This document shows, piece after piece, positions 3,193 through 48,790 of a stretch of 48,842 nucleotides of DNA; within the stretch, counting starts at the first letter, position 1; the number at the start of each line of letters is the position of its first letter. This DNA comes from an uncultured Bacteroidota bacterium. GTDB lineage: Bacteria > Bacteroidota > Bacteroidia > AKYH767-A > JABDAW01. Below the pieces are notes generated by a model, which had not been told where the DNA came from, made no database searches, and saw only the letters and a program-made list of their open reading frames with translations. The DNA is taken from the NCBI GenBank assembly GCA_903844645.1, contig CAIMUP010000025.1:1-48842 (forward strand), given 5' to 3'. A program made the translations under genes and the position numbers.

Positions 3193-3210
3193 ATAACAGA
3201 ATATTTTTAA

Positions 3211-3483
3211 TTCAGGTTGAATATCTTTTGCTTCAGGTTGAATATCTTTTGCTTCAGGTTGAATATCTTTTGCTTCAGGTTGAATATCTTTTGCTTCAGG
3301 TTGAATATCTTTTGCTTCCGAGTGAATATCTTTTGCTTCAGGGTGAACATCTTTTGCTTCGGAGTGAATATCTTTTGCTTCAGAGTGAACATCTTTTGCT
3401 TCGGAGTGAATACATTTTGCTTCAGAGTAAACATCTTTTGCTTCGGAGTGAATACATTTTGCTTTGGGATTAATGTCTTGCAT
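3211..3483. repeat. 21-bp tandem repeat array A, about 13 units
   Basis: Twelve clear units and one degraded unit start every 21 bp from 3211. Each carries the interrupted dyad TTCA-nnn-TGAA (TTCAGGTTGAA, TTCAGAGTGAA, TTCGGAGTGAA) and a constant ATCTTTTGC part. The left five units are nearly identical; the right half alternates variants. The array fills the gap between two divergent genes and lies between their promoters. It is open in several frames because 21 is a multiple of three, giving spurious heptapeptide ORFs that are not annotated here. Confidence 0.97.
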
Positions 3484-3631: not shown

Positions 3632-6187
3632 ATGAAAACAAAAACTACCTTCTCGAAAGCCGCAATCTTCGTTATTGCGATCATCCTTAATTTTAATGCC
3701 GTAGCGCAGCCTGCTCACTTTCTTCCAAAGGGAATCGGGGGTGGCGGTGCCCAATTTGCTCCCAGTATTAACCCTGCCAACCCGAATGAAATGTATGTAT
3801 CTTGCGATATGAGTCCTCTGTTTCATACCACCGATGGCGGTGCTTCGTGGGATGTTGTGGACTACCATTCTATCTTCGCCAACCATGCCACGCATGTGGA
3901 ATTTACCAATAATCCGCTCATCCGGTATTGCATGAATTGCGACCCGAACAACGGTTATTATACCCCGATTAAGACTACCGATGGAGGCACTATCTGGACT
4001 CCCTTAGCCTCCGATCCATCGAGCGGAAATGCGTATTATACCATCGCCAATCCGCAAAATTCTAATCAGGTAATTGTAACATCCTATACCGATTTCTATT
4101 TATCCAATAATGGCGGGACGACCTTCGGGGCATCTTTTTATCACAGTTCTTCTGCTTATATCGCAGGCACTTTTTGGGATGGATTGAACATCTATATCTG
4201 CACCGATAAGGGTATTATTAATTCCACCAATGGCGGTGCCACTTGGAATAATAACCCGTCCATGCCCGGCATTCCGATTGATAGCCAACAAATTGTTTCC
4301 TGTGCCGCAGCCAAAGCAAATGGAATTACTCGTTTCTATTGTATTACCATGACCATCGGGAATGTGTACCCAGGGGTTGTCGGTTCCGATTGCGGGTACT
4401 TTGCAAAGGTTTATACGATGGATTTCGGCACCTCGAATTGGATTCCTAAAATGAATGGAATCACTGCCAATACCGATCATCCCTTCTGTGTCGGCATGGC
4501 GGTGAATAATATTGATGTAGCTTATATTGCAGGAGAAAATAGCGGCACCAGTTATCCCATCGTATTGAAAACTGTGGATTCGGGAGCTAATTGGGTTCAT
4601 AATTTTAATACAACAACAAATCAAAATATTAAGACCGGTTATTGCGGTTCCGGCGGCGATTTCCAATGGACTTGGCCTCAATATATTTATGGCATCAGTG
4701 TCGCTGCAAACGACCCGAATAAAGTCATCTTCACCGATATGGGCTTCACACATAAAACTACCGATGGTGGCGCAAACTGGCAAGCGGCTTATGTCCCTGC
4801 TTCTGATGTTCATCCTGCAAATGCAAGTACGCCTACCCGCCAATATTATCATGGAAATGGCATTGAACCTACCGCCTGTTGGGATATTATGTGGACTGAT
4901 GCTAATCATATTTTTGCAGGATACACCGATGTCCACGCCCTCCGAAGCAATGATGCTGGAACAACTTGGGGATTCGATTACACAGGATTGAATAACTATA
5001 ATACCACTTATAAATTCGTTAAAAACCCAAGCAATGGAGCGATTTATGCTGCTACTTCCAGCGTGCACGATATGTATGAAAGCACTCGCTTGGCAGATGC
5101 ACAATTAGATGCTGGAAGTGGTGCCATCATGATGTCCACTGACAATGGAGCTACCTTTACCACCATGCACAACTTTGCCAGACCGGTCATTTGGCTTGCT
5201 CTCGATCCTACGAATGTGAACCGTATGTATGCAAGTGTCATCAATCATCAAGGAAGTGGAAGTGCTGGCGGCATCTGGGTGTCTAATGACATTCAGAATG
5301 GAGCATCTTCCGTCTGGACACATTGCACCAATCCTGCCCGTACCCAAGGGCATCCTTTCAACATCCGAGTGCTTACTGATGGCACTGTGGTAACCACTTA
5401 TTGCGGAAGACGAACTCCAAATCCCAGCTCTCATTTCTCTGACAGTTCAGGTGTGTTTGTAAGTACCGATGGAGGCACAACCTGGAGCGATAAATCTGCC
5501 AACCCAGGGATGCATTATTGGACGATGGACTTGATTGTTGATCCTTACGATGCCACTCAAAACACTTGGTATGTTTGCGTATTCAGCGGTTGGGGCAATG
5601 CCTCTGCGGGGCAAGGCGGATTGTATCGAACGACTAACAGAGGCACTGCCTGGACGAAGCTCACTGGCAGCACTTACGACCGTGTGTATTCTCTCACATT
5701 CGACCCCGTTCATAGCGGCGTAGCATACATGACTACCGAAACAGAAGGGCTTTGGTACACTGCTAATATCAATGCTGCCACACCATCATTCTCGCAAGTT
5801 TCGGGTTACCCATTTCGGCAGCCGAACAGGGTTTATTTTAATCCTTATAATCAAAATCAGATCTGGATAAACTCCTTTGGCAACGGCATCAGAATGGGCG
5901 ATTTGACAACCGATATCAACGAATTAAATACCGCTAATGATGCCATCAACATATACCCAAATCCCACTACCGGAATCATTACCCTGAACTTCTACAACAA
6001 AGAAAATACATCCCTCAAAATTAAATTATCCAACATAAAAGGGCAACTTATTTATTCCAAAGAAAGCAAAGAAGCGGCAGGAATATATACCCACACCTTC
6101 AGCATAGATACTTATTCCAAAGGCATTTATTTTCTGACCATCATCACCGACCAAGAAACCGTTGTCAGGAAAGTCGTTTTGGAATAA
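3632..6187 (+). CDS. Secreted Asp-box beta-propeller protein with T9SS sorting domain
   Basis: An 851-residue protein. Residues 1-26 form a signal peptide ending VAQP. The body contains about ten Asp-box motifs (S/T-x-D/N-x-G-x-x-W/F), such as TTDGGASWD, TTDGGTIW, TTDGGANW, STDGGTTW and RTTNRGTAW, as in sialidase/BNR and GH74-like seven-bladed propellers. The last 80 residues are a type A T9SS sorting domain (YPNPTTGIITLNF ... GIYFLTI ... VVRKVVLE), so the product should be exported and anchored or released by the gliding/T9SS machinery. GH74 xyloglucanases share the GGGGAQFAPSINPANPN-like N-terminus, but catalytic acids cannot be assigned by eye. A carbohydrate-active or adhesive role is inference. 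Confidence 0.85.
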   Translation: MKTKTTFSKAAIFVIAIILNFNAVAQPAHFLPKGIGGGGAQFAPSINPANPNEMYVSCDMSPLFHTTDGGASWDVVDYHSIFANHATHVEFTNNPLIRYCMNCDPNNGYYTPIKTTDGGTIWTPLASDPSSGNAYYTIANPQNSNQVIVTSYTDFYLSNNGGTTFGASFYHSSSAYIAGTFWDGLNIYICTDKGIINSTNGGATWNNNPSMPGIPIDSQQIVSCAAAKANGITRFYCITMTIGNVYPGVVGSDCGYFAKVYTMDFGTSNWIPKMNGITANTDHPFCVGMAVNNIDVAYIAGENSGTSYPIVLKTVDSGANWVHNFNTTTNQNIKTGYCGSGGDFQWTWPQYIYGISVAANDPNKVIFTDMGFTHKTTDGGANWQAAYVPASDVHPANASTPTRQYYHGNGIEPTACWDIMWTDANHIFAGYTDVHALRSNDAGTTWGFDYTGLNNYNTTYKFVKNPSNGAIYAATSSVHDMYESTRLADAQLDAGSGAIMMSTDNGATFTTMHNFARPVIWLALDPTNVNRMYASVINHQGSGSAGGIWVSNDIQNGASSVWTHCTNPARTQGHPFNIRVLTDGTVVTTYCGRRTPNPSSHFSDSSGVFVSTDGGTTWSDKSANPGMHYWTMDLIVDPYDATQNTWYVCVFSGWGNASAGQGGLYRTTNRGTAWTKLTGSTYDRVYSLTFDPVHSGVAYMTTETEGLWYTANINAATPSFSQVSGYPFRQPNRVYFNPYNQNQIWINSFGNGIRMGDLTTDINELNTANDAINIYPNPTTGIITLNFYNKENTSLKIKLSNIKGQLIYSKESKEAAGIYTHTFSIDTYSKGIYFLTIITDQETVVRKVVLE

Positions 6188-6258: not shown

Positions 6259-6283
6259 AGTTTGGGTCACAAAACCATCCACC

Positions 6284-6516
6284 TCAAATCATTTACGCCC
6301 TACCTCGAATCATTTACGCCCGTACTCGAATCATATTACCAAATGATTCGAATCATATACGCCCGTACTCGAATCATTTACGCCCGTACTCGAATCATAT
6401 TACCAAATGATTCGAATCATTTACGCCCGTACTCGAATCAGTTCCGCCCAGATTCGAATCATTTACACGCTACCTCGAATCAGCTCCGCCCAGATTCGAA
6501 TCATTTACCATTTAAT
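6284..6516. repeat. 21-bp tandem repeat array B, 11 units
   Basis: Eleven units begin with TCGAATCA (the first TCAAATCA) at 6284, 6305, 6326, 6348, 6369, 6390, 6412, 6433, 6454, 6475 and 6496. Nine are 21 bp. Units 3 and 6 are 22 bp with a different interior (TATTACCAAATGAT in place of TTACGCCCGTAC). The dyad core is TTCGAA, extended to GATTCGAATC after the units ending in GAT. The array lies between two plus-strand genes. Confidence 0.96.
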
Positions 6517-6710: not shown

Positions 6711-7167
6711 AGTGTGACAACATTCCCTGGCATTCCAAAACCGAGTTAAGGAATTTTCAGATATATCATTCCGCAACATTTTTTTATTAAGAATAAACTT
6801 TTATAACCTTTTGCAAACCGAAAAGGTATAATGAAAACTTTTAAAAATAAATCATACCCAAGATGTCGAAAAAGTACGAACTAACCAAGATTAACGGATT
6901 GTCTTCTCTCATGGAATTTGAGGGCTGTAATAAAATGGAAAAGCCGCCACCCGGAACGTATTCCATGAAAAAGTTCCCCTACTCACAAATTCCATAAACA
7001 ATTTATAAAACCCATCTCTTGAATAAACGCTTACCATTTTTTTTGAATCCTATAAGAGGAAAACAATTGCCTCACAATATCGGTGCAAAGTCCAGAACTG
7101 CGCGCCACGGTTTAGCCATGAAATATCAATCCAAATTATATTTATGTATTACCAATTAATTAAAAAA

Positions 7168-9555
7168 ATGAAAAACTCTAACAAAAACTTAATGCTTGTA
7201 CTTGCGTTATTGCTGATGACGCAGGTTACTACAAACGCTCAATCTCAATTATGGGGATTGACTAACAATGGTGGTCATCAGTTCGGGACAATTTTCAGCA
7301 TTGCCCCTGGAGCTACGACCTTGTCGAACCAAATTGATTTGCCAGGTAATGCCGGACAAAGCTCCAACCTCCTGAATTTAGTTCAGGGTAGCGATGGAGG
7401 TCTCTACGGGATGACCCCTGGAGGCGGCGTTTGGGGAAATGGAATCATCTTCAGGTACGATCCTGCCACAGATGCCTACATTGAAAAGATTAACCTGAAC
7501 AGCACGACCGGAGATTTGCCCACAGGGTCCTTGGTAAAAGGAACAGATGGTAAGTTCTACGGAATGACCGGCTCTGGCGGCGCAAACGGAGTAGGTGTTA
7601 TCTTTCAGTACGATGCTGTGAGTAATACTTTCAACAAACTGTACGACTTTGAAGATGCTACCGGCAGCCAGCCACAAGGGTCGCTGATACAAGCAGTCAA
7701 CGGGAAGCTCTATGGCATGACACAACAAGGGGGATATTACAGCAGCGGAGTATTATTTTCATTAGATATAGCCACTATTACGTATACCGATTTGTTTGAC
7801 TTTAATGGTACCGACGGAACATTTCCGGTAGGGAATTTAATGCAAGCCAGCGATGGTAATTTATACGGAATGACCAATGGAGGCGGCGCAGATCCCGATG
7901 GATATTTGAATTTTGAACAAGGGTTCGGCGTGCTCTTCCAATATGATATCATCAATAGCCAATATACGAAGAAGATTGATTTGGCAATTGCTACTGGCAA
8001 ATGGCCCACAGGTTCTTTGTTTCAGGCAAGCGATGGTTTTATCTACGGAATGACGAATTATGGAGGACCATTGAATTCTCCTGGTTATGATAATGGAGGA
8101 CAAGGCTATGGAGTAATGTTTAAATATGACTTTAATGCAAACACCTATACCGATATATTTAATTTTAATTCTACAGATGGCAGTAATCCTTATGGAGCTT
8201 TTATCCAAGCTTTGGATGGGAATCTTTATGCCATGACAAATTCAGGTGGAATCAATAATCTGGGAACTATCTTTAAATATGATTTCACCAATGCGGTCTA
8301 TACCAAAAAGGTTGATTTAACGACTGATGGCGGGTCGTTGCCACAAGGCTCCTTGATGCAAACCAGCGATGGCAAGTTTTATGGTTTTACCAATCATGGA
8401 GGAAATGTGTTCTCGGCAGTTTTGTTTCAATACGATGCCGGAACAAATAGTTATGTCTCGAAAAAACAAATATCCTATAGCGAAGGAAGCCGTCCATCAG
8501 GCTCTTTTATTCAGGCCACCGATGGTAAATTGTATGGCTTAACTTCCAGTGGAGGAGCTTTTGGTAATGGTGTTTTATTCCAGTTTGATCCTGTAACGCA
8601 TACCTACACCGATGAAGTTGATTTATTAGATCCTACAGGAGATACCCCTTTCGGTTCATTGGTTCAGGCATCGGATGGTTATCTTTATGGAATGAATAAT
8701 TATGGAGGAGCTAATTTAGCAGGTGTTATTTTCAGATACGATCCTGTTTCGCATGATTATACGGATTTATATGATTTATCCGATGCTTCAGGGGATTTCC
8801 CTTACGGAAACTTGATACAAGGCACAGATGGAAAGCTTTATGGAATGGCATTAGGGGGAGGACAAGCAGGAGAAGGAGTCATTTTCAGATTCGACCCCAC
8901 GACAAGCGCCTTATCTACTGCCGTTGATTTATCAGATGAAATAGGGAGTTTTCCTACTGGCTCCTTGGTTCAAGCATCCAATGGAATGATGTATGGAATG
9001 ACCAGTTCCGGTGGAACAAATAGCGCAGGAGGTATCTTCCTGTTTAATCCAACAAATAATACTTACAACCTATTGGTAAGTTTAGAAGATGCTACTGGAG
9101 ATTTTCCTACCGGTTCTATGATTCAAGGAACAGATGGAAATCTTTATGGATTAACAGGTTCAGGTGGTCTTTATGGATTTGGAGTTCTTTTCAAATATCA
9201 TATCTCATCAAATGCTTATACCGAGTTGATAGATTTGACAGATGCCACTGGTAGTTATCCCGGAGGTTCTTTAATTCAGGCATTGAATGGAAAGATTTAT
9301 GGAACTACTTCATCTGGCGGTGCAAATGGTGCAGGCGTTGTATTTCAATATGACCCTTCCACAAACACCTATTCCGATATGTATAATTTTAATTACTTGG
9401 ATGGATACAATCCTTTATTCGGAAATTTAATTGAAATATGTACCCCTCCGGATGCACCGATTCTTTCAGCGAGTGTTAATCCTATTTGCCCTGGTTCGAG
9501 CACTACTTTAAGTATAAATGGTAATCTTAATAGTGCAACAAGTTGGCAATGGTAA
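7168..9555 (+). CDS. N-terminal segment: TIGR03803-like repeat protein
   Basis: About 795 residues. ATG 7168 is preferred over the in-frame ATG at 7144 because it starts a normal signal peptide (MKNSNKNLMLVLALLLM ... TTNAQ). From about residue 50 there are roughly fourteen repeats of about 50 residues with the core G-S-L-x-Q-A-x-D-G-x-L-Y-G-M-T-x-x-G-G followed by G-V-x-F-x-Y-D, matching the Gloeo/Verruco repeat type (TIGR03803), likely a beta-propeller or solenoid. The frame stops at a TAA inside the first Ig-like linker, so the product would lack the T9SS sorting domain and probably be stranded in the periplasm. Confidence 0.85.
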   Translation: MKNSNKNLMLVLALLLMTQVTTNAQSQLWGLTNNGGHQFGTIFSIAPGATTLSNQIDLPGNAGQSSNLLNLVQGSDGGLYGMTPGGGVWGNGIIFRYDPATDAYIEKINLNSTTGDLPTGSLVKGTDGKFYGMTGSGGANGVGVIFQYDAVSNTFNKLYDFEDATGSQPQGSLIQAVNGKLYGMTQQGGYYSSGVLFSLDIATITYTDLFDFNGTDGTFPVGNLMQASDGNLYGMTNGGGADPDGYLNFEQGFGVLFQYDIINSQYTKKIDLAIATGKWPTGSLFQASDGFIYGMTNYGGPLNSPGYDNGGQGYGVMFKYDFNANTYTDIFNFNSTDGSNPYGAFIQALDGNLYAMTNSGGINNLGTIFKYDFTNAVYTKKVDLTTDGGSLPQGSLMQTSDGKFYGFTNHGGNVFSAVLFQYDAGTNSYVSKKQISYSEGSRPSGSFIQATDGKLYGLTSSGGAFGNGVLFQFDPVTHTYTDEVDLLDPTGDTPFGSLVQASDGYLYGMNNYGGANLAGVIFRYDPVSHDYTDLYDLSDASGDFPYGNLIQGTDGKLYGMALGGGQAGEGVIFRFDPTTSALSTAVDLSDEIGSFPTGSLVQASNGMMYGMTSSGGTNSAGGIFLFNPTNNTYNLLVSLEDATGDFPTGSMIQGTDGNLYGLTGSGGLYGFGVLFKYHISSNAYTELIDLTDATGSYPGGSLIQALNGKIYGTTSSGGANGAGVVFQYDPSTNTYSDMYNFNYLDGYNPLFGNLIEICTPPDAPILSASVNPICPGSSTTLSINGNLNSATSWQW

Positions 9556-11367
9556 ACCGGAAGTTGCGGTGTCACATCAGTAGGAAGTGGAGCTACCATT
9601 TCAGTTACTCCAAATTCAACAACGACCTATTATGTAAGAGCCGAGGGCTCGTGTGTTTCAACAAATACCTGCGCGTCAATTACCGTAACTGTAAGAGCAA
9701 ATGCTACGCCTACTATTTTCGGCAATAATTCATTTTGTTCTGGAAGTTCAGAAGTATTAAGTGTTTCTGGATATACTTCATCGGTTTGGAGCGATGCTTC
9801 TGCTAATTCATCTTTGACCATCAATACTGATGGAACATACTTCGTTACTGTAACCGACAACAATGGTTGCACAGGAACGGCGAGTAAAACAGTATCCACA
9901 AATTCATTACCTACAGCAAATGTTACCGGAACTTGTACAGCATGCTCGTCAGTTAGTCTAACGGCAAGCGGTGGAACATCCTATTCATGGAGTGGTGGAA
10001 ATAACGCTACCTCTGCAACAAATAGCTTTAATACAAGCGGAGCATATACAGTAACCGTTACCAATAACAATGGATGTACAGGAACTACAAGCAGAAATGT
10101 AACAGTGAATCCATTGCCTGTAGCTGCGATAGCAGGGAATGCTTCTTCTTGTTCTTCTTTGACACTTACTGCATCTGGTGGAAGTACGTATGTCTGGAGT
10201 GGTGGAAGTAACACCTCCTCCGCTTCAAATACAATTACTGCAAGCGGAACATATACCGTTTCGGCTACCAATGCAAATGGTTGTGTCGGGACTGCAAGTC
10301 AGGCAATAACGATTTACTCATTACCAACTGTAAGTATTAATAGTATTGGAGCGGTTTGTGCAAGCAACGGTAATGTTACCTTATCGGGTTCGCCTGCTGG
10401 GGGAACATACAGTGGCAATGGTGTTACTGGTTCTTCTTTCAATCCCGCTTCTGCCGGTCCTGGAGCTTCAACAATCAATTATTCCTATACCGATAGTCAT
10501 GGTTGTTCAGCAAGTGCTTCTACTTCTGTAACGGTGAATGCAAATCCTACTCCTCAAATTACATCTGGTGTTAGTTCTATTTGTTCAGGGACGAATGCGA
10601 TACTTCAAGTGGCATCCATCTATACTTCTTATATATGGAATAGTAATCCCGTAAATCATACCAATGCTATATCTGTTTATGATAGTGGAAACTTTGTGAT
10701 AACAGTAACCAATGCTGCCGGATGTAGCGGTACTGCAATGCAACATATAGCCGTGATACCTTCTCCTACAGCATTTATCTCTACCTCTAACGGCTCGTCT
10801 ATCTGTTCTGGAAAGACAGATACCTTAGATGCTGGTCATTTCGATGTGTATGTATGGAGCAATGGTTCTAATAACGAATACCTGTATGCTACCACTACCG
10901 GAACATACTCCGTTACGATAACCGATGTGGATGGCTGTACTGGTGTCGCTTCTAAAGCAATTACTGTGAATGCCAATCCTAACCCTACTATTACTGCCAG
11001 TGGTACTACCACTTTCTGTACTGGCGGCAGCGTGAACCTATGTTCCGGGCAGGCATATACCAATTACAATTGGGGTGCTAATGGTGCCGGTTCTTGTATA
11101 ACTGTTAGCAATGCCGGAACTTATACCTTGACTGTAACTAACAGCAATGGCTGTATCGGATCGGCTACGCAGAGCGTAACGGTGAATACCAAACCTACCG
11201 CTACGGTTACAGCTTCGACTAATGTTACCTGTACCGGATCTACCAATGGTACTGTTACCGCATTGGCATCGGGGGGGGGAATACGCCATATACCTATTTA
11301 TGGAATACCAGCCCTGCCAAAACTACTGCTGCCATTACTACGCTTGCCGCAGGAACTTATACCCTGA
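9556..11367 (+). CDS. Middle segment: Ig/PKD-like repeats, separated by stop and frameshift
   Basis: This continues the previous frame immediately after the TAA. The first usable start codon is the TTG at 9814, so independent expression is doubtful. It encodes serial Ig/PKD-like modules of about 85 residues, with recurrent C-x-G-x-S-x-x-L-x-A, Y-x-W-S, G-x-Y-x-V-T-V-T-N-x-N-G-C-x-G and ITVNP-type linkers, as in Bacteroidota adhesins. The final residues after the G9 tract (from about 11281 to 11367) are out-of-frame sequence. No signal peptide. Confidence 0.7.
   Translation, partial: TGSCGVTSVGSGATISVTPNSTTTYYVRAEGSCVSTNTCASITVTVRANATPTIFGNNSFCSGSSEVLSVSGYTSSVWSDASANSSLTINTDGTYFVTVTDNNGCTGTASKTVSTNSLPTANVTGTCTACSSVSLTASGGTSYSWSGGNNATSATNSFNTSGAYTVTVTNNNGCTGTTSRNVTVNPLPVAAIAGNASSCSSLTLTASGGSTYVWSGGSNTSSASNTITASGTYTVSATNANGCVGTASQAITIYSLPTVSINSIGAVCASNGNVTLSGSPAGGTYSGNGVTGSSFNPASAGPGASTINYSYTDSHGCSASASTSVTVNANPTPQITSGVSSICSGTNAILQVASIYTSYIWNSNPVNHTNAISVYDSGNFVITVTNAAGCSGTAMQHIAVIPSPTAFISTSNGSSICSGKTDTLDAGHFDVYVWSNGSNNEYLYATTTGTYSVTITDVDGCTGVASKAITVNANPNPTITASGTTTFCTGGSVNLCSGQAYTNYNWGANGAGSCITVSNAGTYTLTVTNSNGCIGSATQSVTVNTKPTATVTASTNVTCTGSTNGTVTALASGGGIRHIPIYGIPALPKLLLPLLRLPQELIP
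11271..11279 (+). other. G9 homopolymer tract at a frameshift
   Basis: Nine consecutive G lie in codons TCG GGG GGG GGA. One extra G would give S-G-G-G-N-T-P-Y-T-Y-L-W-N, the usual SprB/Ig repeat text, and join this frame to the one ending at 12944. Confidence 0.9.
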
Positions 11368-12944
11368 CCGTAACAGCATCTACGGGATGCACTGGAACAG
11401 TATCAAAAGTAATTACTACTACTGCCGATGTTACCCCGCCCACGATTGCGACCAATGCAAATGCTACCGCAAATACCAGTGCCGGTAGCAGTACCGCGAC
11501 AGTGAATCTAACTACCCCTACTACTTCGGATAATTGTGGCGTAGCCTCCGTTACCAAGAACCATGCTTCTGCCTTATATCCGGTGGGTGCTACGATCGTT
11601 ATCTGGACCGTTACTGACAATGCCGGCAATACCGCAACTTCCTCTCAAACCGTAACCGTTACGGACAATCAAGCTCCTACTATCACTACCAATACTACCT
11701 TCACCGCAAATACCGCCGCTGGCTTAGCGTATGCTGTCATTACCCTGACTCCCCCTACCGGAACAGATAACAACGGCACGCCTACCATTACCAAGAACCA
11801 CGCGTCTACACAGTACCCTGTTGGGAATACGGTGGTGATCTGGACGGCTACCGATGCCAGTGGTAACACCGCGACCTCCTCCCAAACCGTTACCGTTACG
11901 GATAACGAAGCTCCCGTGGCTATTGCGAAGAATATCTCTGTAACATTAAGCGGTGGTCATGCAACTATTACCCCTGCTTCAGTGGATAACGGTAGCCACG
12001 ACAATGTCGGTATTACTTCGCAGACTGTGTCTCCGAGTTCGTTTGGATGTAACAACATCGGGGCAAATACCGTGAAACTGACCTGTACCGATGCCCATGG
12101 AAATACCGCAACGGTGAACTGTACCGTAACCGTTATCGGGGCGGTGCCTACTCGTACCATTACTTGTACGCCATCCAATAATACCTACACAGGCGGCGAT
12201 TGCAGTAAGATATATCTCGGATACGGACCCCAAACGATTACCCTGAATGGTACTTGCGGTGGCGGTACTTCCTTCACCCATTCATGGTGCGGCGGCAGTG
12301 GCTTGAGTGCTACTAACTGCCAGTATCCTACATTCACTGGTTCTTCGGAATGCCACCCGACATTCACCGTTACGACGACGAACAACTATGGCTGTACTTC
12401 TACTTCCAGTCAGGATATTTGCGTGAAGGATGCGCGTGATCATTACCATAATAACAAGGTCATCGTGTGCCATCACAACTACCGCCATTCTAGTAGCCAT
12501 TCCTCTTATTCATGCAATTCCAGCGACATTCCTTCGCATATTTGCAGCAATTCAGGTAGCCATAGCGACGACAATCATGGCGACCATCAACCTGACCATT
12601 TAGGTTCGCATTATCATCAGGATTGTGATGACCAAGGTGGCGATGACGACGACGATAGGAAGGCAGCCAGCTTCACCGATGCACAGGCAGCAGCGCATGA
12701 TCTGGAATTATTCCCGAACCCATCGAGCACGACCTCGACCATCTATTTCGATGCCAAGGCAGATGAGGCGTATATCCTCAACTTCACCGACAATACCGGT
12801 CGGATCGTGAAATCTATCCATGGAAGCAGCATCGCAGGAGAGAATCACCTGACGGTAGATGTCAACAATCTTTCCCAAGGATTCTACCTCGTTTCCCTAC
12901 AAAAGGACGATGGAATTTATAAAACCAAGTTGATCAGAGAATAG
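11280..12944 (+). CDS. C-terminal segment: HYR-like repeats, His/Asp-rich tail and T9SS domain
   Basis: The frame is open from 11280; the first start codon in it is the GTG at 11502. Two HYR-like modules follow (PPTIATNANATAN..., then APTITTNTTFTAN..., each with VASVTKNHAS / PTITKNHAS and a VIWT-x-T-D-x-x-G-N-T-A-T-S-S-Q-T-V-T-V-T-D end), then a third partial one. A segment rich in His, Ser and Asp (12424-12660) precedes the T9SS type A domain (LFPNPSSTTSTIYF ... GFYLVSLQKDDGIYKTKLIRE). It is the missing tail of the upstream segments. Alone it lacks a signal peptide and should not be exported. Confidence 0.8.
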   Translation, partial: NTPYTYLWNTSPAKTTAAITTLAAGTYTLTVTASTGCTGTVSKVITTTADVTPPTIATNANATANTSAGSSTATVNLTTPTTSDNCGVASVTKNHASALYPVGATIVIWTVTDNAGNTATSSQTVTVTDNQAPTITTNTTFTANTAAGLAYAVITLTPPTGTDNNGTPTITKNHASTQYPVGNTVVIWTATDASGNTATSSQTVTVTDNEAPVAIAKNISVTLSGGHATITPASVDNGSHDNVGITSQTVSPSSFGCNNIGANTVKLTCTDAHGNTATVNCTVTVIGAVPTRTITCTPSNNTYTGGDCSKIYLGYGPQTITLNGTCGGGTSFTHSWCGGSGLSATNCQYPTFTGSSECHPTFTVTTTNNYGCTSTSSQDICVKDARDHYHNNKVIVCHHNYRHSSSHSSYSCNSSDIPSHICSNSGSHSDDNHGDHQPDHLGSHYHQDCDDQGGDDDDDRKAASFTDAQAAAHDLELFPNPSSTTSTIYFDAKADEAYILNFTDNTGRIVKSIHGSSIAGENHLTVDVNNLSQGFYLVSLQKDDGIYKTKLIRE

Positions 12945-13063: not shown

Positions 13064-13290
13064 GGGAAGCTGCTCCCATGATAAGGGGAGTCACTCCCAT
13101 TATACGGGGAATCATTCCCATTATACGGGGAATCGCTCCCATTATACGGGGAATCATTCTCATTATACGGGGAATCGCTCCCATTATACGGGGAATCGCT
13201 CCCATTATACGGGGAGTCATTCCCATTATACGGGGAGTCATTCCCAACATACGGGGAGTCGCTCCGATGTATCGGGGAGTCGCTCCCCGA
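13064..13290. repeat. 21-bp tandem repeat array C, 11 units
   Basis: Units start at 13064, 13085 and then every 21 bp to 13274. The dyad core is GGGGAATCATTCCC, with variants GGGGAGTCACTCCC, GGGGAATCGCTCCC and GGGGAGTCGCTCCCC; the spacer is CATTATAC. The array lies in the convergent gap between the giant protein gene and gldG. Confidence 0.97.
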
Positions 13291-16777: not shown

Positions 16778-16982
16778 GAAAAATCTTTCGGGTATATTGG
16801 ACAAAACAATCAGAATAAACAATCCTCTTCCCCATCCCTCCTTTTCTTCCATCCTCCAAAATCGTTCCGCTTTAGCTGGTAAATTTTCTCCTTTCGCGGT
16901 CAGATTTTTCTTTGAGAGGATGATTTTATTCGCTATTTACCTGTTAAATTCCCCAAAACAGCCAATTCCTTCCCGTGTACAA

Positions 16983-17135
16983 ATGGAAATTTCTCTTGCT
17001 CAAATGGGATTTCCATTTGAGCAAATGGTTGAGCCATTTGAGCAAAATAGGATTCCATTTGAGCAAATGGAAATCCCATTTGAGCAAGAGAAATTTCCTT
17101 TTGTGCAAGGGGAATTTTCATTTGTACACAGGAAT
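16983..17135. repeat. 21-bp tandem repeat array D, about 7 units, partly inverted
   Basis: The core CCATTTGAGCAAATGG (dyad CCATTTG/CAAATGG) recurs every 21 bp at 17013, 17034, 17055, 17076 (as CCATTTGAGCAAGAG) and 17097 (degraded). The array also contains a long inverted repeat: 16985-17028 and 17055-17098 are reverse complements over 44 bp with two mismatches, around a 26-bp spacer. It lies upstream of the helicase gene. Confidence 0.93.
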
Positions 17136-22513: not shown

Positions 22514-22849
22514 TGCGGACTTGTCGCAGGTCACTGAAGTTCTATGTTATTTCACAGCGGAGCTGCCGCATTTTTTAGCGGAGTTGGTTTACGTTGAAAA
22601 CATGAAATTGCACCTCATTGAAATTTTGCCTCTGCTGACTGAAATTTTGCCTCATTCGACTAATTTTCTATTCCAAATCAAAGAAAAGTTGTCGCCATTC
22701 GTAGCGGTGCTCTTGCTGGTGACTGATGTGTTGTGTTTTTTTGCAGCGGAGCTATGTTTTTTTGTAGCGGAGCTTCCGCATTTTTTAGCGGAGCTGTGTT
22801 TTATTCTCCCGAAGCTATGTTTTTTCCAGCCGAAGCTATGTTTTTTTTG
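22514..22849. repeat. 21-bp tandem repeat array E, about 16 degenerate units
   Basis: Units keep a 21-bp register from 22514 to 22849 although they diverge strongly. AGCGGAGC-type units start at 22556, 22577, 22703, 22745, 22766 and 22787, CCCGAAGC/GCCGAAGC units at 22808 and 22829, and TGAAATTTTGCCTC units at 22619 and 22640. The dyad is CGGAGCTTCCG in the best unit (22768-22778); the first unit has CAAGTCC-TTGC-GGACTTG at its junction. It lies in the gap between two minus-strand T9SS genes. Confidence 0.88.
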
Positions 22850-23084: not shown

Positions 23085-26000
23085 CTATTGTATTACGAGC
23101 TTGCTCTGTAATACCGCATCGCCGCTACGAAGGGTCAGCATGTAAATACCTTTCGATATCTCGGCAGTGTTCATCAAATACTGATTGTCGCCAATGATGG
23201 AGGTGGTATTTGTGGAGAATATCAATCTTCCTGTAATATCGGTCAGGCTGATCGTTACCGCTTCTTCCTTCGTGTTAGAATAGGTTACCGTAACATGGTC
23301 GTTTGCAGGGTTCGGATACACCGAGAAGATGGTAGAGCCGATCGTCGTCGCTTCTTCTTCCCTTGCATTGCAGGCTACGACTACGTTGGTAGTGGTGCTC
23401 ATACATCCGTTAGCATCTTTTACTTTTATCGAATAAGTGCCAGGGGCAAGGCTGCTGAAGGTGTATCCCGTTTGCCATGCTCCGCCATTATTCTTTGAGT
23501 AATTATACACACCAGTTCCGCCTGTTGCATATACTATGATACTCCCTGAATTGTTGATGCAGGTGCTGGATTTCACAGTAGCAGTGGTGAAGGTAATCGG
23601 GGTAGGCTGTGTAATAATCACATTCAACGAAGTGCTCAAACAACCGTTTGCATCCTTCACCACGCAGGCATAAGTGCCAGGGGCTAATGACGAGAAAGCA
23701 TTGCCAGCTTGGTAGCTGCCACCGTTGTTATCAGAATATGTTTTAACACCCGTTCCTCCGCTGCCCGTGAGGGTTATTACACCATTGTTAGAGCCATTGC
23801 AAGTAACATTTGTTTTGGCTGCCGTCAAACCTACTGCCGATGGCTGCGTGATGATGGAGTAAGTTACATTAGGCACTATTTGCGAAGGACATCCTGTAAC
23901 ATCCACAATTTGCAACTTGTATTGCGAAGGTGTTAAGCCTGTGAATGTATTAGTCGCTTGGGTCGTGGTAATATTGTTCAAAGTGTTGGTAGCCTTGTAC
24001 GTGTATGACGAATTTCCTGCACCAGGAGTAATGGTGATGGATCCTGTATTACCGCCATTACAAGCTACATTGGTAGAAGTAAAGGTGAAGGTAGGATTAT
24101 AAGGTGTTACCGTTACCGAACTGGTGGCGGTGCATCCATTAAGTGTTGCCGTTACGGTATAAGTAATGGGGCTTAATGTAGTAGGATGGCTGTTCACCAC
24201 AGCACCGGTTACGGTGTTTAATCCCGTAGAAGGAGACCATGAATAGGATGTTGCGCCACTTGCCGTAAGGGTTGTTGTATTCCCAAAACAAACGCTCCTA
24301 AATCCTGCAACAGTAAGGTTAATGGCAGCCGGTTGTGTAACCGTTGCAACAGAAGTTGTGGTACAACCATGCGCATCAGTAACGGTTACGGTGTAGCTTC
24401 CTGCTGTCAAAGTATTGATGGAAGAAGTGGTTGCAGCAGTGCTCCATGAATAAGAATATCCTGCTGTGCCCCCACTTGCAGATACACTTGCAGCACCGTT
24501 GTTACCGCCATTACACGGCGAAACATTGGTTGAAGAAGTAGTCGCAGACAACGCTAATACAGGTTCGTTAATAGTGATGGTCGTCGTTGCCGTACTGCCA
24601 ACATTATCGGTAACGGTATAGGTGTAAGTTCCTGCATTCACCGTGAATAAACCTGTTCCGGTGTAAGGCGAAGTGCCTCCCGTTGCAGAAACGGTAACCG
24701 ATGTTGTTCCACCATGACAATTAACATTAGCTCCAGAAGAAGATGCTGTAAGCGGTGTTGAATTCGCTAAGATACCAACTTCTACATCACCGAACGTAGT
24801 GCATCCGGTAGCTTTGGAAGATGTTGAAGTCAAGGTGCTTACAGTAGCCGATGTCCAAGTGTTAGGATTAAATTTCTTGATGACAAACAAGTTAGGATTC
24901 GCACCACCAATAATGTTTCCTGCCTCAAAGTTGAAGGTAATATCATACGTTCCCAAACTGCTTTGCGAACCCACAAGATACCAGTAACGGTTAATCTTTC
25001 TACTTTGATCAATTCCTGAAATATATGATTCATTGGCATCGCTTGCACCAACGGTTATGGTAATATACCCGCTTGCCGTTGTATTATAGAATTGAATATC
25101 CAAGCCACCATATAGGGCATCACCGATAGGCGCAGTCTTAGAACAAGTACAGCCATTAGGCACATTTAATTTGATAATACCTGTGGTGTATTTACCAGTT
25201 CCGGCACCAGAACATGAAGCGTTTTCACCTAATTCCATCGTGTGAACACCTGTGGCAATCTTACCATTGGTGTATGTAAGGACTGCATTAATGATGATAT
25301 TATCGTTCAAGGTAATCCCAGCAGTATTGTTGATGGTGAAATTATAATAGACACTAACTCCTGTAATGAATTGCGCAACCGTTCCATTGAAGATGATGGT
25401 GCAGTTGTTGTGGTTCCAAGTACCATTGTTAATCCAGTTGCCAGCAATGTAAATGTTCGTTGAAGAAGATCCTGTTAAGATGCCGCTAATGGTTATATGA
25501 TAAAAGGAAGAAGCCGATGAACCAGCAATCAACGTAGTTCCATCAAAGGTACATTTGCCATTGTTATGATTCCATGTTCCATTGTTTGTCCAATTGCCAG
25601 CAATGTGCATGTCCGTAATATGCCCGGTTAATATACCAGTTATGAATACATCAAAGAAAGATGATGTTGAAGAACCACTAATGGTTGTTGTTCCATTGAA
25701 GGTACAGCCGCCATTGTTATGATTCCATGTTCCATTATTTATCCAATTACCTGCAATATAAATGTTCAAAGCCGAAGGTCCTGTTAAGATTCCAGTAATG
25801 GTAATATTATAGAAGTAATTCGTTGAAGAACCACTGATAGTAGTAGTACCATTGAAAGAACATTTACCATTGTTATGATTCCATGTTCCATTATTTATCC
25901 AGTTACCTGCAATCCACATATTTGTTCCATGCCCGGTCAATGTTCCGGTGATGGAAATATCATAAAAGAAAGTTATGGAAGACCCGAAGATAGTTGATGT

Positions 26001-28079
26001 TCCATTGAAAGAACATTTACCGTTGTTATGATTCCATGTACCATTATTAGTCCAGTTTCCTGCAATGTAAATGTTAGTAGGATGCCCTGTCAATGTTCCG
26101 GTAATGAATACATCGAAGAACGATGTTATCGAAGACCCGAAGATAGTTGATGTTCCATTGAAAGTACACTTGCCATTGTTATGATTCCATGTCCCGTTGT
26201 TAGTCCAATCACCAGCAACAAACATGTTGGTAGTATGTCCTGTTAAAACCCCAGTGATGAATACATCAAAGAATGAAGAAATAACAGTTCCGTCAATCAA
26301 TGTTGTTCCGTTGAAAGAACATTTGCCATTATTATGATTCCATGTGCCGTTATTAGTCCAGTTACCGCCGATGTACATATTAGTAGCATGTCCTGTAAGT
26401 GTTCCGTTAATGATAATATCGAAGAAAGAAGTTATCGAAGAGCCATTAATGGTAGTAGTTCCAATAAAAGTTACCAAACAATTATTGTGATTCCAAGTTC
26501 CGTTATTCACCCAATTACCTCCTATATATACATTAGAAGAAGAAGGTCCGGTTAAGATACCGACAATCGTAATATCAAAGAAGGAACTGTAATTAGAGCC
26601 CGCTATCAGCGTGTTTCCGTTAAAGGTAATCTTGCCGTTGTTGTGATTATAAACCCCGTTGTTTATCCAGCCATTGGCAACGTAATAATTAGTAGCATGT
26701 CCTGTCAATGTACCTGTTATGGTGATGTTATAATAGTAACTTATTGCTGTGCCGCTAATCAAAGTTGTTCCGTTGAAAACAACGGTGCCGTTGTTATGAT
26801 TCCAAGTACCGTTATTTATCCAGTTACCATCAATATAAATATTGATTCCTGATGGTCCCGTTAAGATTCCGACGATCTGAATGTCATAAAAGTAATTAAT
26901 GGTAGTGCCGCTAATCAAGGTTGTTCCATTAAAGGTACATTTACCATTGTTATGAAGCCATGTTCCGTTATTTACCCAGTTGCCATAGATATAAAGGTTG
27001 GTTGCATGCCCCGTTAATATTCCATAAATATAAATATCGAAGAAGGAAGTAATGGTTGATCCTGTAATGATTGTAGTTCCGCTAAAGCTGACAATTCCGT
27101 TGCTATGATTAAAGGTTCCGTTATTCACCCAATTTCCATACATATAGAAATTAACTGCTGGAGCTGTCAATATGCCGCTAATATTAATGTTATAAAACGA
27201 GAAGGTAGAAGTACCGCTCAAGGTGGTATTTCCATTAAAAGTAACAGTTCCATTATTATGGATGAAAGTTCCATTATTTATCCAATTTCCATTAACCGTT
27301 ATTGCACCTAATGAAGGACAGGTCAGCGTTCCAGTGATAGTGATATTGTAGAATGTATAAATAGCAAATCCGCTAAGGGTCGTAGTTCCGGTGAAGGTAA
27401 CAGTACCGCCATTGGGGATGAATGTACCATTGTTATTCCAGTCGCCTGATACATTAATATTCTGTCCTGATGGTGCCGTAACCGTTCCATTGCTGATGGT
27501 AAAATTACCGGAGAAATCTACAGGGTTGGAGAAGCTCCAGCCGCCACCTGCTCCATTAAAAAAGATGTAGTAAAAGGCATTGGCACCTGTTAAATTTCCG
27601 CCGATAGTATGCCCGCCTGTCGTGGCATTGAAGTAAATGGAAGCATTGTTGTTCGTGAAGGTGCCAGTGTTATACCAATTGCCGGCACAATAGAAACTTG
27701 CAGCAGAAGGTCCTGTCAATATTCCGATGATGGTAATATCAAAGAAGTAATTGATAGTCGTTCCACTTATCAAGGTGTTTCCATTGAATGTAACGCCACA
27801 ATTATTATGATTCCATGTACCATTATTTATCCAATTACCGCCAATAAAGATATTCCCTGACGATGGTCCGGTGAAGATACCGATGATGGTAATATCGAAG
27901 AAGTAATTAACCGTAGAACCGCTGATAACAGTCGTTCCATTGAAGGAGACTTGTCCGTTGTTGTGGTTGTAAGTTCCATTGTTTGTCCAATTGCCTCCGC
28001 AATAGAAGTTCGTTGATGGTCCTGTTAAGGTACCAGTAATAAATACATCGAAGAAAGAAGTGGTGGATGAACCACTCAT
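23085..28079 (-). CDS. C-terminal part: 51-residue repeats, SprB-like modules and T9SS domain
   Basis: 1,664 residues from the first ATG after the TAG. Residues 1 to about 900 are some 17 repeats, each with N-W-x-N-N-G-T-W-N-H-N-N-G, F-N-G-T-T-x-I-S-G-S, S-F-F-D-I-x-I-x-G-x-L-T-G. The spacing suggests a regular beta-solenoid or filament. After a domain with CTCSKTAPIGDALYGG and a RKINRYWYLVG segment come SprB/Ig-like modules (VNCHGGTTSVTVSATGGTSPY and relatives). The last 80 residues are a T9SS type A domain (VYPNPANDHVTVTY ... GIYMLTLRSGDAVLQSKLVIQ). There is no signal peptide, so on its own it would not be exported. A structural or adhesive role is inference. Confidence 0.85.
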   Translation of the reverse strand: MSGSSTTSFFDVFITGTLTGPSTNFYCGGNWTNNGTYNHNNGQVSFNGTTVISGSTVNYFFDITIIGIFTGPSSGNIFIGGNWINNGTWNHNNCGVTFNGNTLISGTTINYFFDITIIGILTGPSAASFYCAGNWYNTGTFTNNNASIYFNATTGGHTIGGNLTGANAFYYIFFNGAGGGWSFSNPVDFSGNFTISNGTVTAPSGQNINVSGDWNNNGTFIPNGGTVTFTGTTTLSGFAIYTFYNITITGTLTCPSLGAITVNGNWINNGTFIHNNGTVTFNGNTTLSGTSTFSFYNINISGILTAPAVNFYMYGNWVNNGTFNHSNGIVSFSGTTIITGSTITSFFDIYIYGILTGHATNLYIYGNWVNNGTWLHNNGKCTFNGTTLISGTTINYFYDIQIVGILTGPSGINIYIDGNWINNGTWNHNNGTVVFNGTTLISGTAISYYYNITITGTLTGHATNYYVANGWINNGVYNHNNGKITFNGNTLIAGSNYSSFFDITIVGILTGPSSSNVYIGGNWVNNGTWNHNNCLVTFIGTTTINGSSITSFFDIIINGTLTGHATNMYIGGNWTNNGTWNHNNGKCSFNGTTLIDGTVISSFFDVFITGVLTGHTTNMFVAGDWTNNGTWNHNNGKCTFNGTSTIFGSSITSFFDVFITGTLTGHPTNIYIAGNWTNNGTWNHNNGKCSFNGTSTIFGSSITFFYDISITGTLTGHGTNMWIAGNWINNGTWNHNNGKCSFNGTTTISGSSTNYFYNITITGILTGPSALNIYIAGNWINNGTWNHNNGGCTFNGTTTISGSSTSSFFDVFITGILTGHITDMHIAGNWTNNGTWNHNNGKCTFDGTTLIAGSSASSFYHITISGILTGSSSTNIYIAGNWINNGTWNHNNCTIIFNGTVAQFITGVSVYYNFTINNTAGITLNDNIIINAVLTYTNGKIATGVHTMELGENASCSGAGTGKYTTGIIKLNVPNGCTCSKTAPIGDALYGGLDIQFYNTTASGYITITVGASDANESYISGIDQSRKINRYWYLVGSQSSLGTYDITFNFEAGNIIGGANPNLFVIKKFNPNTWTSATVSTLTSTSSKATGCTTFGDVEVGILANSTPLTASSSGANVNCHGGTTSVTVSATGGTSPYTGTGLFTVNAGTYTYTVTDNVGSTATTTITINEPVLALSATTSSTNVSPCNGGNNGAASVSASGGTAGYSYSWSTAATTSSINTLTAGSYTVTVTDAHGCTTTSVATVTQPAAINLTVAGFRSVCFGNTTTLTASGATSYSWSPSTGLNTVTGAVVNSHPTTLSPITYTVTATLNGCTATSSVTVTPYNPTFTFTSTNVACNGGNTGSITITPGAGNSSYTYKATNTLNNITTTQATNTFTGLTPSQYKLQIVDVTGCPSQIVPNVTYSIITQPSAVGLTAAKTNVTCNGSNNGVITLTGSGGTGVKTYSDNNGGSYQAGNAFSSLAPGTYACVVKDANGCLSTSLNVIITQPTPITFTTATVKSSTCINNSGSIIVYATGGTGVYNYSKNNGGAWQTGYTFSSLAPGTYSIKVKDANGCMSTTTNVVVACNAREEEATTIGSTIFSVYPNPANDHVTVTYSNTKEEAVTISLTDITGRLIFSTNTTSIIGDNQYLMNTAEISKGIYMLTLRSGDAVLQSKLVIQ

Positions 28080-28277
28080 TGAGGTAGTTCCATTGAAATG
28101 AACTCCGCAGTTGTTATGATTCCAGGTTCCATTGTTAATCCAATCGCCTCCACAATAAAGATCTCCTGCCGAAGGACCAGTTAAAGTTCCGGAGATGGTA
28201 ATATGATAGAATGAATTGGAGGAAGAACCACTAATACCTGTTGTTCCATTGAAATAGACACCACAGTTATTATGAAT

Positions 28278-29768
28278 CTAGGTGCCATTATTCACCCAAT
28301 CTCTTCCACAATACATATTCCCTGAACTCGGTCCGGTGAGGCTGCCGATGATGTAAATATGATAGAAGTAATTAATCGTGGAACCACTGATAACCGTAGA
28401 GCCATTGAAGTTAACCGCTCCGTTGTTATGATTCCAAGTTCCGTTGTTTACCCAATTTCCTCCAACATAAATATTCCCTGAAGCAGGACCTGTGAAGATA
28501 CCGATAATGGTAATATGATAAAAATAATTTATCGTCGTGCCGCTGATGGTGGTTGTTCCATTGAAATTAGTAGTACAGTTATTATGATTCCAAGTTCCAT
28601 TATTCAACCAGTCGCCAGCACAATAAATTGCTCCTGATGCAGGACCTGTCAGTGTTCCATAGATATTGATATGGAAGAAATAGTTCGTGGTAGTTCCGCT
28701 GATGGTAGAGGTTCCGTTGAATACAACGGTGCTGCTATTTGCTGTGAAGGTTCCGTTATTTATCCAGTTGCCATAAACGGTAAATACATTCGATGTGGCA
28801 ACTTCTAACGAAGCACTGCCGCTAATGGTGATATGATTACAAACCGCTCCTGCTCCATTAATCAATGGTTGGAAGGGTGTGCCGGAAGCTATGATTACAT
28901 CAACCGAAGAGGTAGGTATTACGCCGCCACACCAGTTTGCTGGGTCGAACCAATCATTCGATATTCCAAGCCAAGCACCTGGAGCATTGATGGTGAAAGC
29001 CCCTGCGCTGAAACCATTCCCGGTAGGCGTTGTTACGCCGATCGCTCCTGTAGTTCCTGATGCAGGTACAGCCGTTATTTGTCCATCATTGTCAACGGTG
29101 AAGGATTGGGCTTCTGTACCACCGAAGGTTACGGAGGTAGTTCCCGTGAAGTTAGACCCTGTTATTACGACTGGAGTAGAACCTCCGCAACCGTTATTCG
29201 GGGAGAAATTGGTAATGTTAGGAGTGGAAGCAAGGGTAATATTCACGCTATAATCTTCTACTTCGCCGAACAATGCCTCGCCGCATGGGTCGAGAGGATT
29301 GATCGGGGTGTAGGTCATTCTGATACGCATCGTTGTGTTTCCGGTTAATGCCCAATTAGGGATTAAGATATTCCCTGTGGCGGTCTCGGCAGAGGTGAGG
29401 ACGAGTTTCTCATAGTCATCGAAAACGCCGTTGTGGTCGAAATCAATCCATACCCCGAAGTCGTCATCCGTACCGAAGTAGTAAGGTGCCGTTACGCTGA
29501 TGTCATACGATTGTCCGCGGATAACATCGGTGGAGATACCGGTGAAATCTTGGTACTGATTGCCCCCATCGCAGGTGGAGTTGTTGTTAATTGTTCCGAA
29601 GGTAACATTGCTGATACTCTCGGTGGTATTGTCGCAGCCATTGGTGGTGGCGTAGGCGGAGCAATACTGCGCATTACTGGTAGTGGTCATCATCCCCAAG
29701 ACCATCGTTAAGATACAAACCAGATTCAGGAATCGTGGTGTAAAGAATTTGTTAATTTTTTGTTTCAT
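28278..29768 (-). CDS. N-terminal part: GEVED and IPT/TIG domains plus first repeats
   Basis: 496 residues. ATG 29768 is preferred over 29813 because MKQKINKFFTPRFLNLVCIL begins a clear signal peptide ending SNAQ. A GEVED-type domain follows, with DDFGVWIDFDHNGVFDDYEKL and FGEVEDYSVNI, a likely calcium-rich surface. Next is an IPT/TIG-like domain (ITNFSPNNGCGGSTPVVITGSNF), then a G8/pectin-lyase-like stretch (NDWFDPANWCGGVIPTSSVDVII) and the first four 51-residue repeats up to the in-frame TAG. Its promoter is at 29839-29871. As it stands the product would be truncated and lack a sorting domain. Confidence 0.85.
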   Translation of the reverse strand: MKQKINKFFTPRFLNLVCILTMVLGMMTTTSNAQYCSAYATTNGCDNTTESISNVTFGTINNNSTCDGGNQYQDFTGISTDVIRGQSYDISVTAPYYFGTDDDFGVWIDFDHNGVFDDYEKLVLTSAETATGNILIPNWALTGNTTMRIRMTYTPINPLDPCGEALFGEVEDYSVNITLASTPNITNFSPNNGCGGSTPVVITGSNFTGTTSVTFGGTEAQSFTVDNDGQITAVPASGTTGAIGVTTPTGNGFSAGAFTINAPGAWLGISNDWFDPANWCGGVIPTSSVDVIIASGTPFQPLINGAGAVCNHITISGSASLEVATSNVFTVYGNWINNGTFTANSSTVVFNGTSTISGTTTNYFFHINIYGTLTGPASGAIYCAGDWLNNGTWNHNNCTTNFNGTTTISGTTINYFYHITIIGIFTGPASGNIYVGGNWVNNGTWNHNNGAVNFNGSTVISGSTINYFYHIYIIGSLTGPSSGNMYCGRDWVNNGT

Positions 29769-29838
29769 TATTACTATGTTTAATGTTCGCTTACTCTGTA
29801 AGGTTTTCGGCATCCCCTTTTGTTTAATTATTACGTGG

Positions 29839-31194: not shown

Positions 31195-31383
31195 AAAACC
31201 TAAACCCGTTTTGTGAAAACCTAAACCCGTTTTGTGAAAACCTAAACCCGTTTTCCGAAAACCTAAACCCGTTTTCTGAAAACCTAAACCCGTTTTCCGA
31301 AAACCTAAACCCGTTTTCCGAAAACCTAAACCCGTTTTTTGAAAACCTAAACCCGTTTTCCGAAAACCTAAACCCGTTTTTTG
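31195..31383. repeat. 21-bp tandem repeat array F, 9 units
   Basis: Nine exact 21-bp units share AAAACCTAAACCCGTTTT and vary only in the last three bases (CCG, GTG, CTG or TTG). Across unit junctions the dyad GTTTTC-C-GAAAAC or GTTTT-nnn-AAAAC forms. The array lies in the divergent gap between a T9SS gene and the gene at 31493. Confidence 0.98.
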
Positions 31384-35183: not shown

Positions 35184-35393
35184 TTAGGCTTAAGGAAAAT
35201 TTCCTTAAGGTTAATGAAATAATCTTTAAGCTTAAAGTGCTGCACTTTAACCTTAAAGATTATTTCTTTAAGCCTATTGAAAATTCTATTAAGCCTAATG
35301 AAATTTCTATTAAGCCTATTGAAATTTCCATTAAGGTTAAGAAAAATTCCATTAAGGCTGTAGAAATTTATTTGATGCTTACGGAAGGTTTTA
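35184..35393. repeat. 21-bp tandem repeat array G, 9-10 units, with inverted section
   Basis: Units begin with TTAAGG, TTAAGC, TTAACC or TTAGGC at 35184, 35205, 35226 and so on to 35352; a tenth, degraded, starts at 35373. Within it 35217-35240 and 35242-35265 are reverse complements over 24 bp with one mismatch around one base, so the centre is a near-perfect cruciform. Looser repeats (ATTCCTCCC) precede it from about 35129, and CCTATACTATAGG at 35106-35118 is a 13-bp palindrome. The array lies in the divergent gap upstream of nuoM. Confidence 0.94.
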
Positions 35394-43090: not shown

Positions 43091-43138
43091 ATAAACTTTT
43101 CGGAGCTTTCTCGAGGGATCACATCCAAAATATACGAC

Positions 43139-43201
43139 ACCCTATTCCAAAAACTCGACACCATTTTTCAAAAACTCGACACCATTTTTCAAAAACTCGA
43201 C
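43139..43201. repeat. 21-bp tandem repeat array I, 3 units
   Basis: ACC-CTATTCC/ATTTTTC-AAAAACTCGAC units start at 43139, 43160 and 43181, with degraded half-units on either side (43118 and 43202). The dyad TTTTT-C-AAAAA appears in units 2 and 3. It is the shortest array, in the gap before the 3-hydroxyanthranilate dioxygenase gene. Confidence 0.9.
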
Positions 43202-43212
43202 ACCTTATTCCG

Positions 43213-48664: not shown

Positions 48665-48790
48665 GGTACTCTAATTTCAAATTGGGGTACTCTAATTTCG
48701 GATTGGGGTACTCTAATTTCAAATTGGGGTACTCTAATTTCGGATTGGGGTACTCTAATTTTGGATAAGAATGTTCCAATTCCAAATGAG
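48665..48790. repeat. 21-bp tandem repeat array J, 5-6 units
   Basis: GGTACTCTAATTTC-nnATTGG units start at 48665, 48686, 48707, 48728 and 48749, with a degraded sixth at 48770. The dyad is AATTT-C-AAATT or the wobble form AATTT-C-GGATT, which alternate. The array lies upstream of mreC at the right edge, so its full context is unseen. Confidence 0.95.

Follow-up and report, generated by a model that had tools for sequence, protein, structure and literature searches.

Large secreted surface proteins encoded by genes with G tracts in or near them, either intact or broken by stops and frameshifts, are known from Campylobacter. The inactivation of the autotransporter genes capC and capD was put down to lineage-specific decay and not to tract length, and premature stops and frameshifts explain most of it (PMC7168839). 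This decay is the closest published parallel to the locus described here. However, capC and capD are autotransporter genes of Campylobacterota studied in many strains, whereas our gene encodes a Bacteroidota cargo of the type IX secretion system (T9SS), is seen in one genome and one orthologue, and would be at an earlier stage, with no decay. The second comparable system is the poly-G contingency loci of Campylobacter, Neisseria and Helicobacter (PMC6321876, PMC8355987), which resemble our locus in that the length of a coding G tract, here G9, sets the frame of a surface protein. Unlike in those loci, the tract described here has no counterpart in the orthologue, and it is kept from switching by a stop upstream. 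The recent inactivation of a T9SS surface-protein gene is a known kind of event. Slipped-strand switching of T9SS cargo was not found in the literature searched.

We analysed a stretch of 48,842 nucleotides from an uncultured Bacteroidota bacterium (the window). An earlier note on this DNA had described a giant surface-protein gene broken by a TAA and a G9 tract, with three frames joining into one protein. Both the TAA and the G9 are present in the sequence (Table 1), and the pieces do form one split gene, being collinear with a single ORF of a relative, residue after residue. However, these are three pieces in two frames, as the TAA is in frame. The first ORF has 803 codons and ends ...SATSWQW* at the TAA. 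Beyond it the same frame reads TGSCGVTSVGSG... and is stop-free to 11367, past the G9 tract, while the frame of piece 3 is open from 11223 to its stop at 12944. Since the two open frames overlap in 11223-11367, the frame change must fall there. A codon-usage decoder placed it at about 11260 and the alignment to the intact relative placed it at the G run.

Table 1. Features of the split gene, other broken T9SS genes, poly-G tracts and 21-bp arrays. Positions refer to the window or to the named stretch of the same genome.
Feature	Stretch	Position	Strand	Description
Piece 1	window	7144-9555	+	signal peptide, 14 GloVer (TIGR03803) repeats, first part of Ig-like domain; closed by the TAA
In-frame TAA	window	9553-9555	+	within Ig_7 (CHU_C-associated) domain; orthologue TTT (Phe), paralogue TAC (Tyr)
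Piece 2	window	9556-11270	+	Ig_7 / PKD-like / SprB-like repeats; frame as piece 1; no further stop
G9 tract	window	11271-11279	+	site of frame change; orthologue TCTGGCGGTTCC, two bases shorter
Piece 3	window	11280-12944	+	SprB-like repeat end, two HYR domains, His/Asp-rich stretch, T9SS type A sorting domain
Second broken T9SS giant repeat-protein gene	window	23085-29813	-	ORFs 28278-29813 and 23085-28079 (open to 28277)
In-frame TAG	window	28278-28280	-	internal repeats of the same gene have TGG (repeat text NNGTWNHNN)
T9SS-tail gene	L121 (contig C39)			frameshift at about C39:9440, 895 + 1041 aa
Kelch/T9SS gene	L039			broken by frameshift
T9SS-tail gene, about 2,800 codons	L232 (contig C1)	50127-58531	-	TAG after 887 codons (at about 55868), then 1913 aa
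G14	L045	5177-5190 (C104:76676-76689)		in T9SS cargo gene (745 aa), 37 nt past its ATG; in frame in assembly
G17	L036 (C39)	5323-5339 (C39:27322)		48 nt after ATG of TPR membrane protein; out of frame
G11	L041 (C82)	3965-3975		48 nt after ATG of TPR membrane protein; out of frame
G10	L038			in short Ig-like lipoprotein; in frame
21-bp arrays	window	3199-3464, 6283-6508, 13073-13287, 16980-17124, 22734-22847
21-bp arrays	window	31195-31380, 35264-35356, 40491-40672, 43135-43211, 48665-48766

The three parts make up one T9SS cargo of about 1,930 aa, which consists of a signal peptide, 14 GloVer repeats, Ig-like repeats, two HYR domains and a T9SS sorting domain. All the parts of a T9SS type A cargo (TIGR04183 / PF18962) with GloVer repeats (TIGR03803) are present and in order. 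Unlike a typical cargo, the gene is split over three pieces, and the TAA and the frame change put its sorting domain out of frame with the signal peptide; in the orthologue the two are in frame. Piece 1 scored 508 bits for GloVer over 14 stretches and also carries the hydrophobic leader. It is weakly similar to Kelch beta-propellers of known structure, and its structure prediction without an alignment was too poor for use (mean pLDDT 37.9). The sorting domain on piece 3 scored 41.4 bits for PF18962 (cut-off 27 bits) and 36.1 bits for TIGR04183 (cut-off 23 bits). The TAA sits just behind the GloVer repeats. The adjoining gene is gldG, in convergent orientation.

We compared 60 related genomes and found a clear orthologue in a genome of the same genus (G001), where it is a single open ORF of 1,904 codons. 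It is 52-59% identical across all three pieces, which follow one another along it residue by residue, and relative to this ORF the window gene has two disabling lesions. A genome-collection search with the sorting-domain region returned one distant locus only. In G001 the orthologue and gldG lie on separate contigs, each ending just past the 3' end of its gene, which fits the convergent gene order of the window.

The orthologue bears on both lesions. The earlier note had read the TAA as a tyrosine codon, and an aromatic residue is indeed expected there, although it is Phe in the orthologue and Tyr in a paralogue (L052) from the window's own genome. The proposal that one G is missing from the G9 run is not parsimonious, as the intact relative has two bases fewer there; adding one base and removing two are equivalent modulo 3, and the SprB-like text A-S-G-G-x-T-P-Y fits the shorter version. 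Since the orthologue is shorter there, the G run of the window is derived, having grown from a Gly-Gly codon pair. Its simplest history is the gain of two bases, or else another change with the same effect modulo 3.

We then have to ask how old the lesions are. Against the G001 orthologue, pN/pS was 0.38, 0.37 and 0.40 for pieces 1, 2 and 3, and the frames downstream are undecayed, as had been claimed. Equal constraint in all three pieces means either a very recent loss or a gene that is not inactive, and because of it the lesions are taken to be recent. The roughly 1,120 downstream codons contain no additional stop, which limits neutral divergence since inactivation to less than about 1.7% per site (95%). 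The dS to the sole orthologue is saturated, so the timing comes from the absence of further stops and is no finer than this limit.

The undecayed downstream parts, and the nine-G run as a possible slippage site, could also point to recoding, in which readthrough of the stop, together with slippage on the G9 by the ribosome or during transcription, yields the full-length protein. We regard this as extremely improbable. Two events would be needed in one message, while the orthologue uses neither device; the broken T9SS genes carry different stops (TAA, TAG) in place of different residues, and an unusual tRNA was not found in the sampled part of the genome.

Our results suggest that a T9SS surface-protein gene was probably inactivated recently by two independent mutations. 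The presence of a separate nonsense codon speaks for inactivation, which the earlier note had named alongside consensus error. Before that, the gene would have specified a repeat protein of about 1,930 aa, secreted by T9SS to the cell surface. One lesion would be a substitution which created the TAA in the first Ig-like domain, and the other a slippage indel in the Gly-Gly codon pair, which by then had become a G run. We infer that the lesions sit in the cells and not in the consensus, that the gene is off and that replication slippage gave rise to the G run; any order of the two lesions is likewise inferred. Translation would end at the TAA, upstream of the sorting domain required for T9SS export. 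The truncated product would thus lack the sorting signal, and at best a short unsorted propeller fragment would be made. Slippage alone cannot switch the gene on, because the TAA lies upstream of the G tract, and tract length alone does not decide the reading of the whole protein. This looks like ordinary recent gene loss rather than a working on/off switch. A loss of mismatch repair behind the slippage was unsupported, as open frames for MutS (867 aa) and MutL (657 aa) are present.

The TAA and the G9 length could also be artefacts of a consensus or assembly error, or of a consensus of mixed strains, with the gene intact in the cells. This is unlikely, though it deserves serious weighing, as both lesions fall in a single gene with undecayed surroundings, a long G run is the likeliest place for an error, and the genome is a 143-contig draft which may mix strains. 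However, a homopolymer error does not account for a substitution to TAA, and the adjoining gldG, as well as MutS and MutL, are intact. Homopolymers of 5-8 within genes almost never break the frame in this genome: among about 245 intracoding homopolymers in 577 kb (A/T of at least 6 and G/C of at least 5, inside scorable coding sequence) the frame was kept in all but a handful, and these exceptions were mostly gene boundaries or low-complexity repeats. The frame changes flagged in L126, L119 and L127 look like ordinary gene boundaries and were rejected.

The distribution of lesions makes the consensus error proposed as one option in the earlier note less likely. Besides the window gene, four T9SS-tail genes are broken (TAG at 28278, L121, L039 and C1), the stop in C1 being an additional case met by chance. 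In-frame stops flanked by coding sequence with no start nearby were found only at 9553 and 28278 of the window, apart from the one in C1, and all belong to giant T9SS-tail genes. In the first sample, 4 of the 29 T9SS-tail genes were broken, whereas among 470 other coding segments at most about 1 was (Fisher p about 4e-5, approximate and indicative as this sample was partly chosen for G tracts). The genome was surveyed through sampled stretches, and a small further frameshift candidate lies in L233. T9SS cargo makes up about 15% of coding bases, yet the clear lesions are concentrated in it. Since they cluster in T9SS-tail genes and other genes are almost lesion-free, a random consensus error is argued against, while strain mixing at variable surface genes could pick T9SS cargo. 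The split gene with its G9 tract is itself more than chance, as the pieces are collinear with one ORF and there are only 17 runs of at least nine Gs in 3.84 Mb. None of the 13 T9SS-tail ORFs in 366 kb of G001 is broken. The recent inactivation of the window gene is probably one case of a broader turnover that affects the giant T9SS cargo genes of this genome.

Phase variation would explain the locus as one caught in the OFF state, where the tract toggles the frame and so the attachment of the sorting domain, and the TAA is a later hit in an OFF lineage or a minority allele in the consensus. We find this quite improbable, as no switching can occur at present with a stop ahead of the tract, and a tract deep in the gene and missing from the orthologue is not a conserved switch. 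The points in its favour come from other genes. Start-proximal poly-G tracts, in the position typical of contingency loci, are present elsewhere in the genome (L045, L036 and L041), and its 17 tracts of at least nine Gs compare with 7, 1 and 7 in the nearest relatives. The products of L036 and L041 are paralogous and O-mannosyltransferase-related (TMTC/PMT_2), with an ORF of 630-670 aa behind the tract; the two tract lengths differ by 6, and about 17 paralogues of this TPR family in the genome are without a tract. T9SS-like genes of another genome of the same order, G022, add to this. It has five near-identical secreted-protein genes of about 541 codons with a weak T9SS tail (L188, L190 and L191); in every copy a G10-G12 run lies 23 nt behind an ATG in the same context. 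The start-proximal tracts of L045, L036, L041 and the G022 genes resemble contingency loci. ATG-proximal G9 runs were nevertheless not enriched across the order, with 33 against 34 in the reversed-pattern control. The long G runs in L035, L043 and L049 were rejected as switches, as they lie in terminators or intergenic DNA.

It is conceivable, but in our opinion doubtful, that the genus displays stochastically switched, fast-turnover giant T9SS surface proteins by means of G tracts and frequent stops. Tracts placed just after the start codon, or in front of the sorting domain, would then decide whether the cargo arrives at the surface, and for many of these genes intact and broken alleles would coexist in the population. 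Returning to recent inactivation of the window gene, by itself it is of little significance, as it adds only another surface-protein gene that was broken recently. Of more note is the wider pattern, since the broken genes found in this genome are almost all T9SS cargo and several envelope genes have G tracts of 10-17 in contingency positions. If the tracts prove length-mixed, this would be a surface-variation system for uncultured Bacteroidota, testable from existing metagenome reads.

The interest of the case lies in this genome-wide setting of broken T9SS cargo and start-proximal G tracts, and also in a set of 21-bp tandem arrays, unrelated to it. These mostly intergenic arrays have a period of exactly 21 bp with unrelated unit sequences, and are found throughout the genus. 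A length of 21 bp corresponds to two turns of DNA. They are possibly the most unusual feature of the genome; nothing on them was found in the literature searched. Besides the window, they occur in L036, L041, L042, L044, L116-L122 and others. No 21-bp array was seen in the 24 kb of G003, while all three arrays in the 21 kb of G002 have this period. In 366 kb of G001 we counted 38 arrays of period 21 and 12 of period 42. Of about 142 arrays in 637 kb of the window genome, 113 show period 21 and another 22 period 42, roughly one array per 5 kb.
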